Both the position numbers and the translations under genes were made by a program. A DNA stretch of 64,000 nt. Origin: Salipiger profundus (lineage in GTDB: Bacteria; Pseudomonadota; Alphaproteobacteria; Rhodobacterales; Rhodobacteraceae). The stretch covers positions 119,959-183,958 of the forward strand of contig NZ_CP014802.1 of the NCBI RefSeq assembly GCF_001969385.1, read 5' to 3'. Of the stretch, positions 12,781-18,550 are shown piece after piece. How positions within the stretch are numbered: position 1 is the stretch's first letter; every line of letters begins with the position of its first letter. A model generated the notes under the pieces. The model did not search any database, was not told the DNA's origin, and worked only from the letters and a program-made list of their open reading frames with translations.

Positions 12781-13059
12781 GCAGCGCAGGGGCGAAATCT
12801 GGGTGGCCGTTGGATCGTCAGAAAGGGCTCCCAGTCAGCTGCCGCTGTACCGCGCGCGGACAGCAGCCTCAAATACCGGTGAGCGCGCGTCGCCGTGCCA
12901 CCCCCGGCGGTGGAATGGACGACAGACCGTGGCGCCAGAAATTCTCGCCTCGGGGCGCGTGCTTCAATCCGAGATGACACCCCGGGTGACCATGGCATGG
13001 GACATGCGATGCGGTGCTCCTGCAAATGGTCGGTGCGATCATGCCCCGATGCGAAAGTA

Positions 13060-13067
13060 ACGGCAGG
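13060..13067. repeat. Target-site duplication, left copy
   Basis: ACGGCAGG directly before the left end of the IS1595-family element; identical to 15806-15813. Eight bases is the duplication length of the IS1595 family. Confidence 0.85.
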
Positions 13068-13107
13068 CGGGATTATCCCGCTGACACATCAGCCTCTAAA
13101 TCTTGTG
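13068..13107. repeat. Left terminal inverted repeat of the IS1595 element
   Basis: Shares the run GATTATCCCGCTGACACATC and a terminal ATCTTGTG block with the right end. Mismatches fall at positions 1 and 3 and in a six-base block at 27-32. Confidence 0.9.
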
Positions 13108-13151
13108 TTTAGGGCTTCATGATTTGAGGTAGGGGCCAACATTGATCGGCC

Positions 13152-14132
13152 ATGCCTCATAGACCCGTCAAGCGCGCCCCCGACAACATCACCTTCGCCG
13201 AGGTCGAGAAGATCGCCTCGGATGAAGCCGCCTGCCTGGCGATCTTCGAGCGCCTGCGCTTCCCCGACGGTCTCTACTGCACTGCATGCGGCGCATCCGA
13301 AGTCGCTGGGCGACGTTTTACGCGCCACCTCTCACGGCCCGGTCTATTCACCTGCGGCGCGTGCCGCCACCAGTTCACGCTCACGTCAGGCACGGCGATG
13401 CATCGCACTCGGCTCTCGCTCGGCCAGTGGCTTCGTGCCATCTGGTTGATCGTCGCCTCGTCAAAGGGCATGTCGGCCCGCAAGCTCTCCGAGATGCTCG
13501 GCGTCACCTACAAGGTCGCCTGGCATCTCGGCCATCGCATCCGGGCGATGATGGCTGACCATAGCATCGTTCTCTCAGGTATCGTGGAGATGGACGAGAT
13601 CTACGCAGGCGCGCCGCCGCGCAAGAAGCATGGCGGCGGTCCGAGCGACGAGAAGCCCGGGCGCGGTCCACGTCGCCCGCTGGTGCTCACGATGGCAGAG
13701 CGCGGCGGCCCGGTCGCCTTCCAGCGCATCACCAGCCATTCAATCGCTGTCATCCGCGGTGCTTCGCATCACCGGATCTCCGGCGATGCCGTCGTCTCGA
13801 CGGACGCGCTACCGGCTTACCGCAAGGCGGTGTCCGGTCGGGCACACATGGCGGTCAAGCACTCCGCCGCCGAGTTCGTCCGGCGCGATGCCGGAGGTCC
13901 CGGCGTCGATGCGCACACGAATACAGCCGAGGCGGTTCATGCCGAGATCCGGCGCGCCGTCATCGGCGTGTGGCACTGGATCTCGCCAAAGCATCTCGAT
14001 CGCTATCTTGATGAAATCTCCTGGCGGCACAATCGAAGGGATATCGGCCACCTGCGGCGCATCGCAGCGGTTCTGCTCGCGGCTGGCCGACCGCTACCGG
14101 TTCGTGCTCTCATTGACGGAGACGCCGCATAA
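13152..14132 (+). CDS. IS1595-family (ISXO2-like) DDE transposase
   Basis: 326 residues. The N-terminal zinc ribbon has C43/C46 (CTAC) and C68/C71 (CGAC). The ISXO2-like catalytic domain has D148 (VEMDEIYAG), D218 (VSTDALPAY) and E260 (HTNTAEAVHAEIRR). The family hallmark ISPKHLDRYLDEISWRHNRR lies at 278-297. All expected residues are present, so it should be active. Transcription probably starts between the left repeat and 13152. The stop TAA is followed at once by the ATG of the nuclease gene. Confidence 0.93.
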   Translation: MPHRPVKRAPDNITFAEVEKIASDEAACLAIFERLRFPDGLYCTACGASEVAGRRFTRHLSRPGLFTCGACRHQFTLTSGTAMHRTRLSLGQWLRAIWLIVASSKGMSARKLSEMLGVTYKVAWHLGHRIRAMMADHSIVLSGIVEMDEIYAGAPPRKKHGGGPSDEKPGRGPRRPLVLTMAERGGPVAFQRITSHSIAVIRGASHHRISGDAVVSTDALPAYRKAVSGRAHMAVKHSAAEFVRRDAGGPGVDAHTNTAEAVHAEIRRAVIGVWHWISPKHLDRYLDEISWRHNRRDIGHLRRIAAVLLAAGRPLPVRALIDGDAA

Positions 14133-15800
14133 ATGGTTTCGGTTGCGATGCTTTTGGCCAATATTACTTGCATGAAGCGCTGCGACCATCTCCCGCTGCT
14201 GGAGGCTAACCCAGGCAAGATCCGGGCATTGCGCGAAGTGCTGCGCGCCTTCCGTCGCGCCGCGCCGGACGTGGCTGCCGACCAATGGCAGCGGTTCTTC
14301 GAAACTGGTCGCTTCAACAAGATGGTTTCCGCCAAGGAAGAGGCGCACTCCGCGCGCCTGTTCCGGGCGAAGGCGATCATCGGGTCGCAGCGGATGCAGA
14401 TGCTGCGCTACCAGGTGGTCGGCCAGCTGGAGAGCTTCATCGAGAACCGAGCGAACGACTTTCGCGATGCGGTCATGGCATCGTCGATCGACGACGGCAC
14501 CCGTCATCATCTCCTGGTCGTGAACAAGCTTCACGCATGGTTCCGACGCGAGCCGGTGGTAATGAAGAAGACCGGCGAGGAGATCCCGGACGACGTCCGG
14601 CACCTCGCGCGACGGATCATGCACGGCGTGCTGGCGCGCCACCGGCGGCCGCGGTTCCGCCGCCTGAACCCATGGATCGACCAGCGGCAGGCGACGCTCG
14701 GTCCCGCCGATAAGGCGACCCACGCGCCGCTCTGGGTTGGTATCCGCGGGATGGCCTTCGAGATTGGCAAGAACGGCCGGCCAAAGAAATCCCAAGTCAC
14801 CATCAAGGTGCCGCTGAAGTCCTACGCATTCTTCGAGGAACGCGGCGGGACGGTCGCGAAGACCGTCCAGATCATTGAACGCGGTGCCGACCACGGCTGC
14901 CCCGGTGAGATTGTCATCGGTGTCATCACCGACATGGAAGAAGTCTTCGCGAAAAGCCAGGCGGCCTACCAGCCGCTGAGAGAGGAACTGACGCTCGATC
15001 TCGGTCTCGCCACGATGTTCGCCACGCCTGATGGAGACCTTCTCGGACGCGCTTGGCGCGAGCAGCTCGAACGGCATGACCGGCGCATCTCCGGCCTGGC
15101 ACGCGCGCTCCAAAAGCAGGGCATCCGCCCCAACCAGTCGAAGCGCTATCGCGCCCGAGTCGCTGCCTTCCGCGGCTTCCTCAAGACCGAGATCGGCCGG
15201 GTGCTGAACCGGCTCATCTTGATGAAGCGTCCTGCACACGTGGTCATCGAGCGCCTCGACTTCACCGCCCCTGGCCTCTCGCGCCGCCTCAACCGCATCC
15301 TCGCGCGGATGGGGCATGGCGTGATCGAAGCAAAGCTCAACGACCTCGCCGAGCGCTACGGGATTACTTGGGAAGAGGTGAACCCGGCCTACTCGAGCCA
15401 GACATGCTCGAATGAGCACTGCGGCTATGTCGCGAAGAACAACCGTAAGGCGCAGGCGGACTTCGTCTGCGGCGCCTGCGGGCACAAGATCCATGCCGAC
15501 GTGAACGCGGCGCGCAATCTGGAAAGCGGACGTTCCGCCTTCGATCGGGCTGCGCGCCTCACCAAGCAGGAAAGCCTCCGGCTGACGGTTCACCGTCACT
15601 TGGAGCGCCTCAAGACCCGGGGCTGGGTGGCTTCGGACCGTGCGGCGATCGTGTCCAATCCCAACTACCGGAATGCCCTCGATAGACTGAAGGCAGAGAC
15701 ACCCCTCACCGCGGCGGACAAGATCCAGAGACCTTCTGCACCGGATCAGGCGGCCGTCAGGCCACCACAAGATCTGGTAGCTGATGTGTCAGCGGGATAA
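14133..15800 (+). CDS. tnpB: TnpB-like RNA-guided nuclease candidate, RuvC triad intact
   Basis: 555 residues, longer than the roughly 350-450 usual for TnpB. The extra sequence is mostly N-terminal, with about 285 residues before the RuvC core. RuvC-I is LDLGLATMF with D289, RuvC-II is HVVIERLDF with E373, and RuvC-III is HADVNAARNL with D456. The TnpB-type zinc finger SSQTCSNEHC...CGAC uses C425, C430, C446 and C449. With D, E and D all present it should be a nuclease rather than an inactivated TldR-type repressor. The ATG at 14133 abuts the transposase stop, with GGAG a few bases upstream, implying translational coupling; a second ATG at codon 14 is a possible alternative. The last eight codons and the stop lie inside the right terminal repeat. 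Confidence 0.88.
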   Translation: MVSVAMLLANITCMKRCDHLPLLEANPGKIRALREVLRAFRRAAPDVAADQWQRFFETGRFNKMVSAKEEAHSARLFRAKAIIGSQRMQMLRYQVVGQLESFIENRANDFRDAVMASSIDDGTRHHLLVVNKLHAWFRREPVVMKKTGEEIPDDVRHLARRIMHGVLARHRRPRFRRLNPWIDQRQATLGPADKATHAPLWVGIRGMAFEIGKNGRPKKSQVTIKVPLKSYAFFEERGGTVAKTVQIIERGADHGCPGEIVIGVITDMEEVFAKSQAAYQPLREELTLDLGLATMFATPDGDLLGRAWREQLERHDRRISGLARALQKQGIRPNQSKRYRARVAAFRGFLKTEIGRVLNRLILMKRPAHVVIERLDFTAPGLSRRLNRILARMGHGVIEAKLNDLAERYGITWEEVNPAYSSQTCSNEHCGYVAKNNRKAQADFVCGACGHKIHADVNAARNLESGRSAFDRAARLTKQESLRLTVHRHLERLKTRGWVASDRAAIVSNPNYRNALDRLKAETPLTAADKIQRPSAPDQAAVRPPQDLVADVSAG

Positions 15801-15805
15801 TCACC
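15766..15805. repeat. Right terminal inverted repeat, overlapping the nuclease stop
   Basis: Inverted copy of 13068-13107. It contains the last codons and the TAA (15798-15800) of the TnpB-like gene, leaving five bases between the stop and the element end. Confidence 0.9.
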
Positions 15806-15813
15806 ACGGCAGG
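15806..15813. repeat. Target-site duplication, right copy
   Basis: ACGGCAGG, identical to 13060-13067. If the nuclease uses a TnpB-style guide RNA reading out of the element, these would be the first guide bases. Confidence 0.85.
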
Positions 15814-16444: not shown

Positions 16445-18550
16445 TCAGCTGAAGAGGAAGTCCGAGGCGTCGAGCTCGGCCGCGGCGACCCCCTCGAGCA
16501 GGATCTCGTGGCCCATCACCGAGATCCGCGCGCCGCCGGAGACGTCGGCGATGTCGAGCATGTCGAAGCTCACGCCGCCCAGCCGGATCAGGTCGCTGCC
16601 GTTCTCGAAGTCGGTGATGACGTCGCGCTCGCCGTTGACCAGCGTGTTGAAGACGAAGAGATCCGCGCCCTCGGAGCCGGTGAGCGTGTCGTTGCCGGTG
16701 CCGCCGTTCAGCGTGTCGTTGTCGCCGCCGCCGATCATCAGGTCGTCGCCGGCACCGCCGCCGAGGAAGTCGTTGCCGGACTCGCCCTGCAGCGTGTCGT
16801 TGCCGTTGCCGGCGCCAAGCGCGTCGTGGCCGGCGCCGCCCTGCAGCAGGTCCTGACCCTCGCCGCCGCCGAGGAAGTCGTTGCCGGTGCCGCCGTCGAC
16901 TGTGTCGTTGCCGTAGCTGCCCGCCAGCGTGTCGTCGCCGTCGTTGCCCAGCACGGTATCGTTGCCCCAGCCGCCCGAGGCGGCGTCCTGGTCGGCGCCG
17001 GCGTCGATGTAGTCGTCGTCGTTGCCGCCGCCGATCACGTCGTTGCCGCTGTTGCCGTAGAGGCTGTCGTTGCCGTCGCTGCCGCCGATGGAGTCGTTGC
17101 CGAGACCGCCCTCGGCGTAGTCGTCGCCCTCGTGCAGCGCGATGTTGTCGTGGTTGTTGCCACCGTAGACCACGTCGTTGCCGGCCCGGCCGAGCAGCGA
17201 GTCGTTGCCCTGGCCGCCGTAGATCGTGTCGCTGCCCTCGAGCCCGTCGAGGAAGTCGTTGCCGAGGTAGCCGTAGAGCGCGTCGGGGCCGCTCTCGCCG
17301 GTCAGGATGTCGTTGCCGTCGGTGCCGGTGACGGTGCTCGGCGTGCCCACGAGATCGGCCGCCTCGAGGCTGCCGTCAAGGAAGGCGAAGGTCTCGACGC
17401 CCTCGACGTAGTCGGTCTCGGCGCCGATCCCGACGAGGAAGCCGCTGCCGCTGACGGTGATCGTCGCGGCCGACTGCTGCACGTCCCAGACCGCGCGGTC
17501 GTTGCCGGTGCCGCCGATCAGCGTGTCGTTGCCCGCCCCGCCCGTGAGCGTGTCGTTGCCGGCGCCCGCGTCGAGCAGGTTGTCGGCATCATTGCCGGTG
17601 AGCGCGTCGTTGCCCGCGCCGGTGAAGAGATCCTCGATCACCGTGCCGGGCATGATGAGGAGGTTGCCGGTGTAGCCCTCGAGGTTCGAGGCCTGCCCGC
17701 CCACCAGGGTGATCCGCTGCGCCACGTTCGAGGGGCTGACGTCGATCGTGTCGTGGCCGCCGTGATCGTAGATCGTCATGGCCAGCGCCCCGGAGGCGAC
17801 ATCCGCGCCCGGCCCGCCGTCGTAGAGCGCGGCGAAGAGCGTGCCGAGCAGCCCGTCGACCGTGCTGCCCGCGCCCCAGACCGTGTCGCCCGCGGTCTCG
17901 GTCGAGGCGCCGTAGAGCGCCTGCGCGGCGAGGATGTCGACGGTCATCGGGGTGACGAGCTCGGCGTAGCTGGCGGTGACCGTGGGGTTGGCGGTCTGCC
18001 AGATGTAGGACATCACCGAGAGCTGCCAGCTGTCGTTGGTGAAGATCGCGTCGTCGTAGCTGGTGCCGCCGCCGTCGTAGGGGCCCATGTGGCCGAGCCC
18101 CAGCGCGTGGCCGATCTCGTGGATGTAGGTCTGCAGGCCGTAGTCGCCGATCCGCGTGCCCTCGTTGGCGATCCAGCCGGTCGAGATGTTGACCTCCGCC
18201 GACTGGGTGTTGCCGCCCGAGGTGATGTAGGTCGAAAACGCCCCGCCCAGATCGTCGCGGAAGGTGATGTCGGCCCCGGAGGAGACCTGGACGAAGTCGA
18301 GGTCGGCCACCATCTCCCAGGCGCCGAGCGCCCAGAGCGCGAGCTGCTGCCCCTCGGCGGTGAGACCGGAGACGTCGTAGGTGATCTGGTTGCTTCCGGA
18401 GGTGTCGAAGGAGCTGGCGTAGCCGCCGGTGGCGGCCCAGTAGCCACTGACGAGATAGTCGCGCATCTCGGCCAGGGAGCCGGTCAGCGTGGGTGCCGCG
18501 AGGGCGGTTCCCGCCCCGGTTGAATTGATCGTTCCTGCGTGGGTCGACAT
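16445..18550 (-). CDS. Serralysin-like metalloprotease with RTX repeats
   Basis: 701 residues. An M10 metzincin domain (about 45-215) has the zinc motif HEIGHALGLGH at 144-154 and a Met-turn at M180 (SVMSY). Then come a hydrophobic beta region and about 20 RTX nonapeptides of the GGxGNDxLx type (about 310-345 and 415-660). A typical C-terminal type I secretion signal region ends ELDASDFLFS. Such enzymes are exported by a type I system, bind calcium outside the cell and degrade proteins. No Sec signal peptide is present, as expected. No T1SS genes are in the window. It is transcribed divergently from the polysaccharide cluster. Confidence 0.93.
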   Translation of the reverse strand: MSTHAGTINSTGAGTALAAPTLTGSLAEMRDYLVSGYWAATGGYASSFDTSGSNQITYDVSGLTAEGQQLALWALGAWEMVADLDFVQVSSGADITFRDDLGGAFSTYITSGGNTQSAEVNISTGWIANEGTRIGDYGLQTYIHEIGHALGLGHMGPYDGGGTSYDDAIFTNDSWQLSVMSYIWQTANPTVTASYAELVTPMTVDILAAQALYGASTETAGDTVWGAGSTVDGLLGTLFAALYDGGPGADVASGALAMTIYDHGGHDTIDVSPSNVAQRITLVGGQASNLEGYTGNLLIMPGTVIEDLFTGAGNDALTGNDADNLLDAGAGNDTLTGGAGNDTLIGGTGNDRAVWDVQQSAATITVSGSGFLVGIGAETDYVEGVETFAFLDGSLEAADLVGTPSTVTGTDGNDILTGESGPDALYGYLGNDFLDGLEGSDTIYGGQGNDSLLGRAGNDVVYGGNNHDNIALHEGDDYAEGGLGNDSIGGSDGNDSLYGNSGNDVIGGGNDDDYIDAGADQDAASGGWGNDTVLGNDGDDTLAGSYGNDTVDGGTGNDFLGGGEGQDLLQGGAGHDALGAGNGNDTLQGESGNDFLGGGAGDDLMIGGGDNDTLNGGTGNDTLTGSEGADLFVFNTLVNGERDVITDFENGSDLIRLGGVSFDMLDIADVSGGARISVMGHEILLEGVAAAELDASDFLFS

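Follow-up and report, generated by a model that had tools for sequence, protein, structure and literature searches.

The 64,000-nucleotide stretch of Salipiger profundus DNA analysed here (contig NZ_CP014802.1, positions 119,959 to 183,958; hereafter, the window) contains at 13060..15813 a transposon of the IS1595 family with its flanking duplications, in which a TnpB-like nuclease gene follows the gene for a DDE transposase (Table 1). The inverted arms, at 13071-13107 and 15766-15802, are 89% identical over their 37 nt, and adding the three outer bases of each arm gives a 34/40 match between the terminal inverted repeats (TIRs), as an earlier note on this DNA had counted. When all pairs of left and right ends with a 7- or 8-bp target-site duplication (TSD) were searched, the pair flanked by ACGGCAGG ranked top, with 24/28 in the TIRs and 8/8 in the TSD, and the second pair had 16/28 and 7/8. 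The boundaries and the exact 8-bp duplication given in that note therefore stand. Because both genes lie inside a single set of inverted repeats and a single 8-bp duplication, they form one unit, and the sequence confirms the region as a complete IS1595 element with both genes in one mobile unit; the proposal that the two genes move together is further borne out by the TIR and TSD that they share in relatives. IS1595 elements usually carry a single transposase gene, according to the part of PMC8101967 drawn on here, a norm from which this element departs by the second gene inside its repeats. Neither gene inside the repeats matches the Y1 HUH or serine recombinase families, and the element is present as a single copy in its own genome.

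Table 1. Features of the IS1595 element and its flanks, in window coordinates
Feature	Coordinates	Strand	Basis or remark
IS1595 element, 2,738 bp	13068-15805		Lies between two copies of ACGGCAGG
TA, proposed target-adjacent motif (TAM) of the empty site	13058..13059	+	Directly 5' of the left duplication
Left copy of the 8-bp TSD, ACGGCAGG	13060..13067	none	Sequence and TIR/TSD search
Left TIR, tip CGGG	13068..13107	none
IS1595-family (ISXO2-type) DDE transposase, 326 aa	13152..14132	+	PF12762, PF12760, NF033547
TnpB-like nuclease, 542 aa	14172..15800	+	PF07282, TnpB/Cas12f fold, RuvC triad
Proposed omegaRNA/reRNA scaffold (approximate)	15610..15805	+	Overlaps the gene 3' end and the right TIR; inferred from relatives
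Proposed scaffold stem-loop	15617..15636	+	8 pairs, three of them G-U; loop GGGT at 15625-15628; covariation in window-clade relatives
GGTG, loop side of the proposed pseudoknot	15626..15629	+	Its fourth base forms the top of the stem
Right TIR	15766..15805	none	Contains the final nuclease codons and, as proposed, the scaffold's 3' end
CACC at the right tip, terminal side of the proposed pseudoknot	15802..15805	+
Right copy of the 8-bp duplication, ACGGCAGG	15806..15813	+	Proposed first 8 nt of the guide (role inferred), continuing into the right flank

The transposase matched PF12762 with an E-value of 1.1e-26 over positions 2-153 of the 153-position profile, and scored above the cut-offs of PF12762, PF12760 and NF033547, which cover the DDE_Tnp_IS1595 and Zn-ribbon domains, in agreement with the intact ISXO2-type enzyme described earlier. 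Translation of the nuclease probably starts at the ATG at 14172, as in close homologs, within a longer open reading frame that begins at 14133, and the stop codon falls within the right TIR. Its match to PF07282 reached 66.7 bits (cut-off, 26.3), and TnpB/Cas12 models were also matched. The complete RuvC D/E/D triad and the zinc finger that had been read from the sequence were both recovered, since D289, E373 and D456 (555-aa numbering) and the zinc-finger residues C430, C446 and C449 were invariant among 32 aligned homologs, a selection from the best 120 of 377 that passed the threshold, some of the 120 being fragments. An AlphaFold2 model of the nuclease (mean pLDDT 77.1, pTM 0.61, mostly of low confidence beyond residue 468) gave 56 matches in the PDB at E<=0.001, of which the best 50 were Cas12 (including that of V-K CRISPR-associated transposons), TranC, TnpB and Fanzor structures, among them Cas12f and the TnpBs of ISFba1 and ISDra2. 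The modelled nuclease thus has the TnpB/Cas12f fold. Both genes are under purifying selection, with ratios of nonsynonymous to synonymous substitution rates (dN/dS) of 0.15-0.42 over 13 comparisons: 0.15-0.22 for the transposase (four pairs; 0.16 between the window copy and L006) and 0.21-0.42 for the nuclease (nine pairs). On the minus strand, a 558-aa open frame at 14094-15770 lies antisense to the nuclease gene and is probably a by-product of the high G+C content.

The pairing recurs in relatives. Nucleases 30-75% identical to the window copy lie downstream of IS1595 transposases in Alpha- and Gammaproteobacteria, and in 18 of the 21 nuclease-clade rows of the tree described below, IS1595 transposase sequence precedes the nuclease in the same orientation, with records of the pairing from Rhodobacterales, Parvibaculum, Indioceanicola, Rhodovibrio, the Halorhodospira type and metagenomes. 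Further copies with both genes inside the same repeats, which the earlier note had proposed to look for, were found in many genomes, Rhodobacterales included. The nuclease ends in DVSAG or near variants in most close relatives, and a DVSxx-type signature closes the protein in 45 of the best 120 of the 377 homologs; the DVSAG codons of the window copy lie within the right TIR, which points to a gene directly adjoining the transposon end in relatives as well. Many of these 120 homologs are on contigs of approximately 2-4 kb, close to the size of the element. Counting the own copy of the query wherever it was searched, nuclease matches were found in 2 of 148 genomes of relatives, 1 of 385 of the class, 4 of 390 of the order, 3 of 125 of Paracoccus, 3 of 12 of the family of the Halorhodospira record and 1 of 200 of the family of the Acidiphilium record. 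The 80 viral loci that were kept included four close relatives (L085-L088), two of them IS1595-linked, and no further viral loci were found for the L222-type nuclease.

Three rows of the clade lacked a transposase, namely L015 and the Rhizobium copies L018 and L191. For L015 (3101-4685), the nuclease stands alone between repeats that match at 23/28, with an exact 8-bp duplication; L018 and L191 are likewise nuclease-only elements with inverted repeats and no neighbouring transposase gene, and the duplication of L191 is exact at 8 bp. L015 and L191 presumably moved in trans, because they have exact 8-bp duplications and no transposase gene. For L010, L011, L012 and L220, the transposase is in fragments or split frames and the neighbouring nuclease frame is intact; the genome that contains L010 and L011 has a sister copy, L227, whose transposase is full-length. 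In L010, L011, L220 and L224, the 8 bp differ between the left and right flanks, which suggests recombination between copies or a deletion beside one end. P0061 and L027:4506-5597 are single frames that fuse part of the IS1595 transposase with part of the nuclease, and are probably deletion chimeras.

In the nuclease tree (49 rows), the IS1595-linked nucleases and the three nuclease-only copies L015, L018 and L191 lay on one side of a branch with support 89/93, which is below the tree program's mark for firm support, and a clade of the 18 IS1595-linked nucleases alone was neither established nor rejected, at a p-AU (approximately unbiased test) of 0.30. The single grouping for which the earlier note had proposed a TnpB tree was thus seen, with the nuclease-only rows inside it. 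The neighbouring group (99/97) is made up of TnpBs either linked to IS607 or solitary, found in Aquificota and Nitrospirota, on a Thermus plasmid, in a Thermus phage and on viral contigs; the four IS605-linked rows as well as three other IS607-linked rows were placed elsewhere. A random recent capture from an IS605 element was therefore rejected, because the nearest outgroup is an IS607 TnpB and the IS1595-linked nucleases cluster. The nuclease-bearing transposases stood apart from 13 sampled nuclease-free ones, with weak support (43/0). The distances of nuclease and transposase were correlated over 13 elements (Mantel r 0.75, p 0.0001), with one small discordance in branching order involving L014, L017 and L085. 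These comparisons support the view that the pairing is old and recurrent and is not a recent chance capture, and are best explained if an IS1595 element acquired an IS607-type TnpB once and the two genes were inherited together from then on.

Within a clade, the right ends form a close alignment, and in the aligned relatives the nuclease gene carries, in its 3' part, a hairpin whose loop is rich in G. For the window clade (seven sequences, five distinct), 97.5% of the cells of the hairpin pair, compared with no more than 62.5% in slid controls; its covariation score was matched by 2 of 500 shuffles, and three of the eight pairs were changed on both sides. For Halorhodospira and Parvibaculum (11 sequences, seven distinct), 87.8% of the cells pair, the score was matched by none of 500 shuffles, and three of seven pairs were changed on both sides. 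In addition, the least variable of 323 twelve-codon windows in the six sequences of the Halorhodospira/Rhodovibrio clade overlaps the hairpin, with 2 variable bases against a median of 12, as expected if the RNA as well as the protein is under selection. RNAalifold predicted a multi-stem scaffold that includes the inverted repeat.

The loop of this hairpin could pair with the right tip of the element in each clade: GGTG(AT) with (AT)CACC in the window clade, GGAGA with TCTCC in L221/L222, GGGT with ACCC in L015 and GGGC with GCCC in the Halorhodospira clade. Over seven representatives, loops and their own tips scored a total of 32.5, compared with a permutation mean of 25.9, and 4 of 5,040 permutations were as good, a value that is indicative because the loops were delimited by eye. 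The left and right tips also diverge over their first 4 nt to a greater degree than those of nuclease-free elements (Mann-Whitney p 0.001, from a table of tips and flanks compiled by hand). Structure prediction and covariation in the relatives thus point to a TnpB-style scaffold with a loop-tip pseudoknot at the right end, less strongly so in the window copy.

The dinucleotide TA stands directly before the left duplication in 17 of 21 nuclease-bearing IS1595 elements, compared with 2 of 12 nuclease-free ones (Fisher p 0.0006), which have TA on the right side in 3 of 12. Among the 15 elements whose duplication was verified on both sides (three of them at 7/8), TA was found on the left in 13 and on the right in three (p 0.0007), and the elements discordant between the two sides numbered 10 against 0. 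For L224, the left end was read by analogy with its relatives, as the finder gave a shifted pair (7/8); L009, L013, L016, L214, L027/L194, L177, L225 and L226, with no visible left end, were excluded; and the nuclease-free controls are the 12 of 20 loci with clean ends, the other eight being dropped and the finder settings having varied slightly. The position of TA fits a TAM, because a guide made of the duplication and the right flank puts the 5' motif to the left of the left duplication, and TA on the left alone is what a TAM calls for, and a symmetric transposase preference would not produce it. The 8-bp duplications of the nuclease-free L200, L202, L206, L208, L209 and L210, all of the same bacterial family, are rich in A+T, which those of most nuclease-bearing elements are not.

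We consider it likely, on the sequence evidence above, that this is an IS1595 DDE transposon with a built-in TnpB-type RNA-guided nuclease that acts on the emptied site. In the proposed mechanism, the 3' end of the nuclease message together with the right repeat would give rise by processing to a guide-RNA scaffold with its end at the transposon tip, and the RNA would continue past the tip, with the duplication and the right flank as the guide. The target would be TA followed by the duplication and the right flank, that is, the site without the transposon. The occupied right junction would be spared with the guide match present but CC or CT in place of TA, and the occupied left junction with TA present but only 8 matching bases, which are fewer than a TnpB would need. 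The substrate could be the site that remains once the element has been excised and one copy of the duplication lost, or else an allele that lacks the element, carried by a sister chromosome or an incoming replicon, and cutting it would lead to repair from a copy that holds the element, and so to retention and homing-like spread. The nuclease would most likely cut the emptied site, restoring or spreading the element, and the role in donor-site repair, retention or homing that had been suggested for it fits the guide-RNA-like right end and the TA. TnpB is able to process its own mRNA into guide RNA, according to the sections of PMC10278001 consulted, and the part of PMC11870625 drawn on here describes that the TnpB of IS200/605 elements cuts the joined donor site, triggers recombination from the element-holding copy, and acts as a gene drive on plasmids.

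One alternative accepts an active RNA-guided nuclease, and to that extent overlaps with the emptied-site mechanism, but takes TA as the DDE transposase's own preference, asymmetric as the two ends differ. It could well hold, although we rate it at rather less than even likelihood. In favor of it, the TAM of IS200/605 elements is the transposase's preferred insertion motif (PMC11870625, in the same part), TA also occurs at some of the right flanks, and the nuclease-free controls are distant in their transposases. On the other hand, the left-right asymmetry is strong; L015 has no transposase gene and different TIRs, and yet has TA; and the nuclease-free ISPepr2, with the same TIR start CGGAACTATC, has TT at the TA position, albeit in one copy only. 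A nuclease that helps the transposase to choose or open target sites with its RNA, and thus acts in guided insertion and not after excision, seems unlikely: the two proteins are encoded together, but the duplications of the 15 verified elements all differ, and such a nuclease could only re-target the same site, because its guide would be copied from the present flank. RNA-guided insertion does exist in other systems.

Other transposons carry passengers, and the single copy per genome here would suit a nuclease kept inside the repeats passively and by chance. This is nevertheless very unlikely in view of the purifying selection, the co-divergence with the transposase, the covariation of the RNA, and the intact nuclease frames beside the fragmentary transposases of L010, L011, L012 and L220. 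An artefact, with an IS607 or IS605 element inserted beside an IS1595 element, would accord with the nuclease lineage adjoining IS607 TnpBs in the tree, but a search out to 1.2 kb from each IS1595-linked nuclease, with models seeded from L216, turned up neither a serine nor a Y1 gene, and one TIR/TSD pair surrounds both genes in many genomes. A composite insertion was rejected on these two grounds, and its probability is negligible.

Several observations weigh against the emptied-site mechanism or the RNA proposed for it. The nuclease scored 84.7 bits with NF040570 (guided_TnpB), below the curated cut-off of 100. Among the 21 elements, two (L024 and L224) have broken genes and six lack a matching right-hand duplication. 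The left TA is replaced by CA in L007, AC in L086, and CT and GT in the Rhizobium nuclease-only copies L191 and L018, and TA could be an asymmetric transposase preference, given that the control transposases are only 35-44% identical to the queries used and that right flanks carry TA too. The number of doubly changed pairs in the hairpin was reached by 20 of 500 shuffles in the window clade and by 200 of 500 in Halorhodospira and Parvibaculum. For the pseudoknot, the loops were drawn with the tips in view; the own tip was best in three of seven rows, tied in three and beaten in one (L014); the unpaired loop of the window clade is only GGGT, and pairing past three bases borrows bases of the stem; and RNAfold alone favors another local pairing in the window copy. 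The tips of L015 are identical, the nuclease-free L209 has three tip mismatches, and the evidence for the pseudoknot does not extend to the Rhizobium copies.

Also on this side, the empty site in close relatives by which the earlier note would have confirmed the duplication was not found at base level. In the genus of the window (20 genomes, its own included), none of the matches listed from another genome spans the insertion point. For L014 and L007, nine of the ten fetched regions were compared. In G1373, the neighbour genes that flank the element of L014 are separated by approximately 250 bp, although the junction itself was not alignable, and two further regions from the genus of G839 (the Parvibaculum indicum record; 27 genomes) do not cover the L014 junction. 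For L007, alignment with six Paracoccus regions stops approximately 630 bp to the left and 380 bp to the right of the junction.

These observations can be joined in a wider reading, which we rate at rather less than even likelihood: that a DDE transposon lineage recoded its right repeat into a guide-RNA end, that the duplication serves as the guide seed and the nuclease imposes the TA, and that the lineage is a bacterial counterpart of the Fanzor capture that arose independently of it. If this is true, only insertions with TA on the left would be kept, and the nuclease, not the transposase, would shape where the element is found. The lineage shows that the restriction of bacterial TnpB to other transposon families is not absolute, offers a natural system for asking whether a guided nuclease helps a DDE transposon to persist, and provides, for a little-studied group of nucleases, the prediction of a TA-ended motif and a scaffold ending in an inverted repeat. 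Beyond the element, on the minus strand at 16445-18550, the window encodes a serralysin-like protein with a HEIGHALGLGH motif and GGxGxD-type repeats, and sequences that match this repeat region occur many times in the genome and the genus.

The earlier note knew of no characterised example of this pairing, and that holds within the literature consulted: a search by title and abstract found no description of an IS1595/ISXO2-TnpB pairing, with one cited survey of possible other pairings outside its reach, and bacterial TnpB pairing is described, in the literature and partial texts consulted, only for two other transposon families. PMC9956272 does not mention IS1595, and names DDE once, about other IS transposases; in the parts of PMC12507524 consulted, IS1595 transposases stand in a table and are not linked to TnpB. 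However, the consulted sections of PMC10278001 state that TnpBs with transposases other than Y1 or serine enzymes were left out of the survey, and because it says that it excluded them, such pairings had been seen before.

In comparison with known systems, the element resembles the TnpB-bearing IS200/IS605 and IS607 elements such as ISDra2 and ISXfa1 in the RuvC D-E-D triad, the zinc finger, the fold, and the predicted guide-RNA-like right end with a loop-tip pseudoknot, as well as in the predicted arrangement of the motif to the left and the guide to the right of the insertion; a five-nt pairing of the bases next to the guide with the apical loop of a stem-loop has been described for ISDra2 and tested in ISXfa1 (PMC10711439, in the part consulted). 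Unlike these elements, it owes its mobility to a DDE transposase, with inverted repeats and an 8-bp duplication, and not to a HUH or serine enzyme, and its proposed guide begins with the duplication. It shares with the ISXO2/ISPepr2-like members of the IS1595 family the Zn-ribbon and DDE_Tnp_IS1595 domains, the TIRs and the 8-bp duplication, and differs from them in the second gene, which shares the right repeat, and in the right tip, which departs from the left tip. As with Fanzor1 and Fanzor2* in eukaryotic DDE transposons, a TnpB relative has been captured by a cut-and-paste transposon with TIRs and a TSD; unlike the Fanzors, the window element is bacterial, and RuvC-I of its nuclease has the DLG of TnpBs and not the DPG of Fanzors (motif forms from PMC10711439, same part). 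According to that part, Fanzor1 scaffolds are predicted to include the duplication and to lack the pseudoknot, whereas the window element is predicted to keep the pseudoknot and its scaffold seems to end before the duplication.

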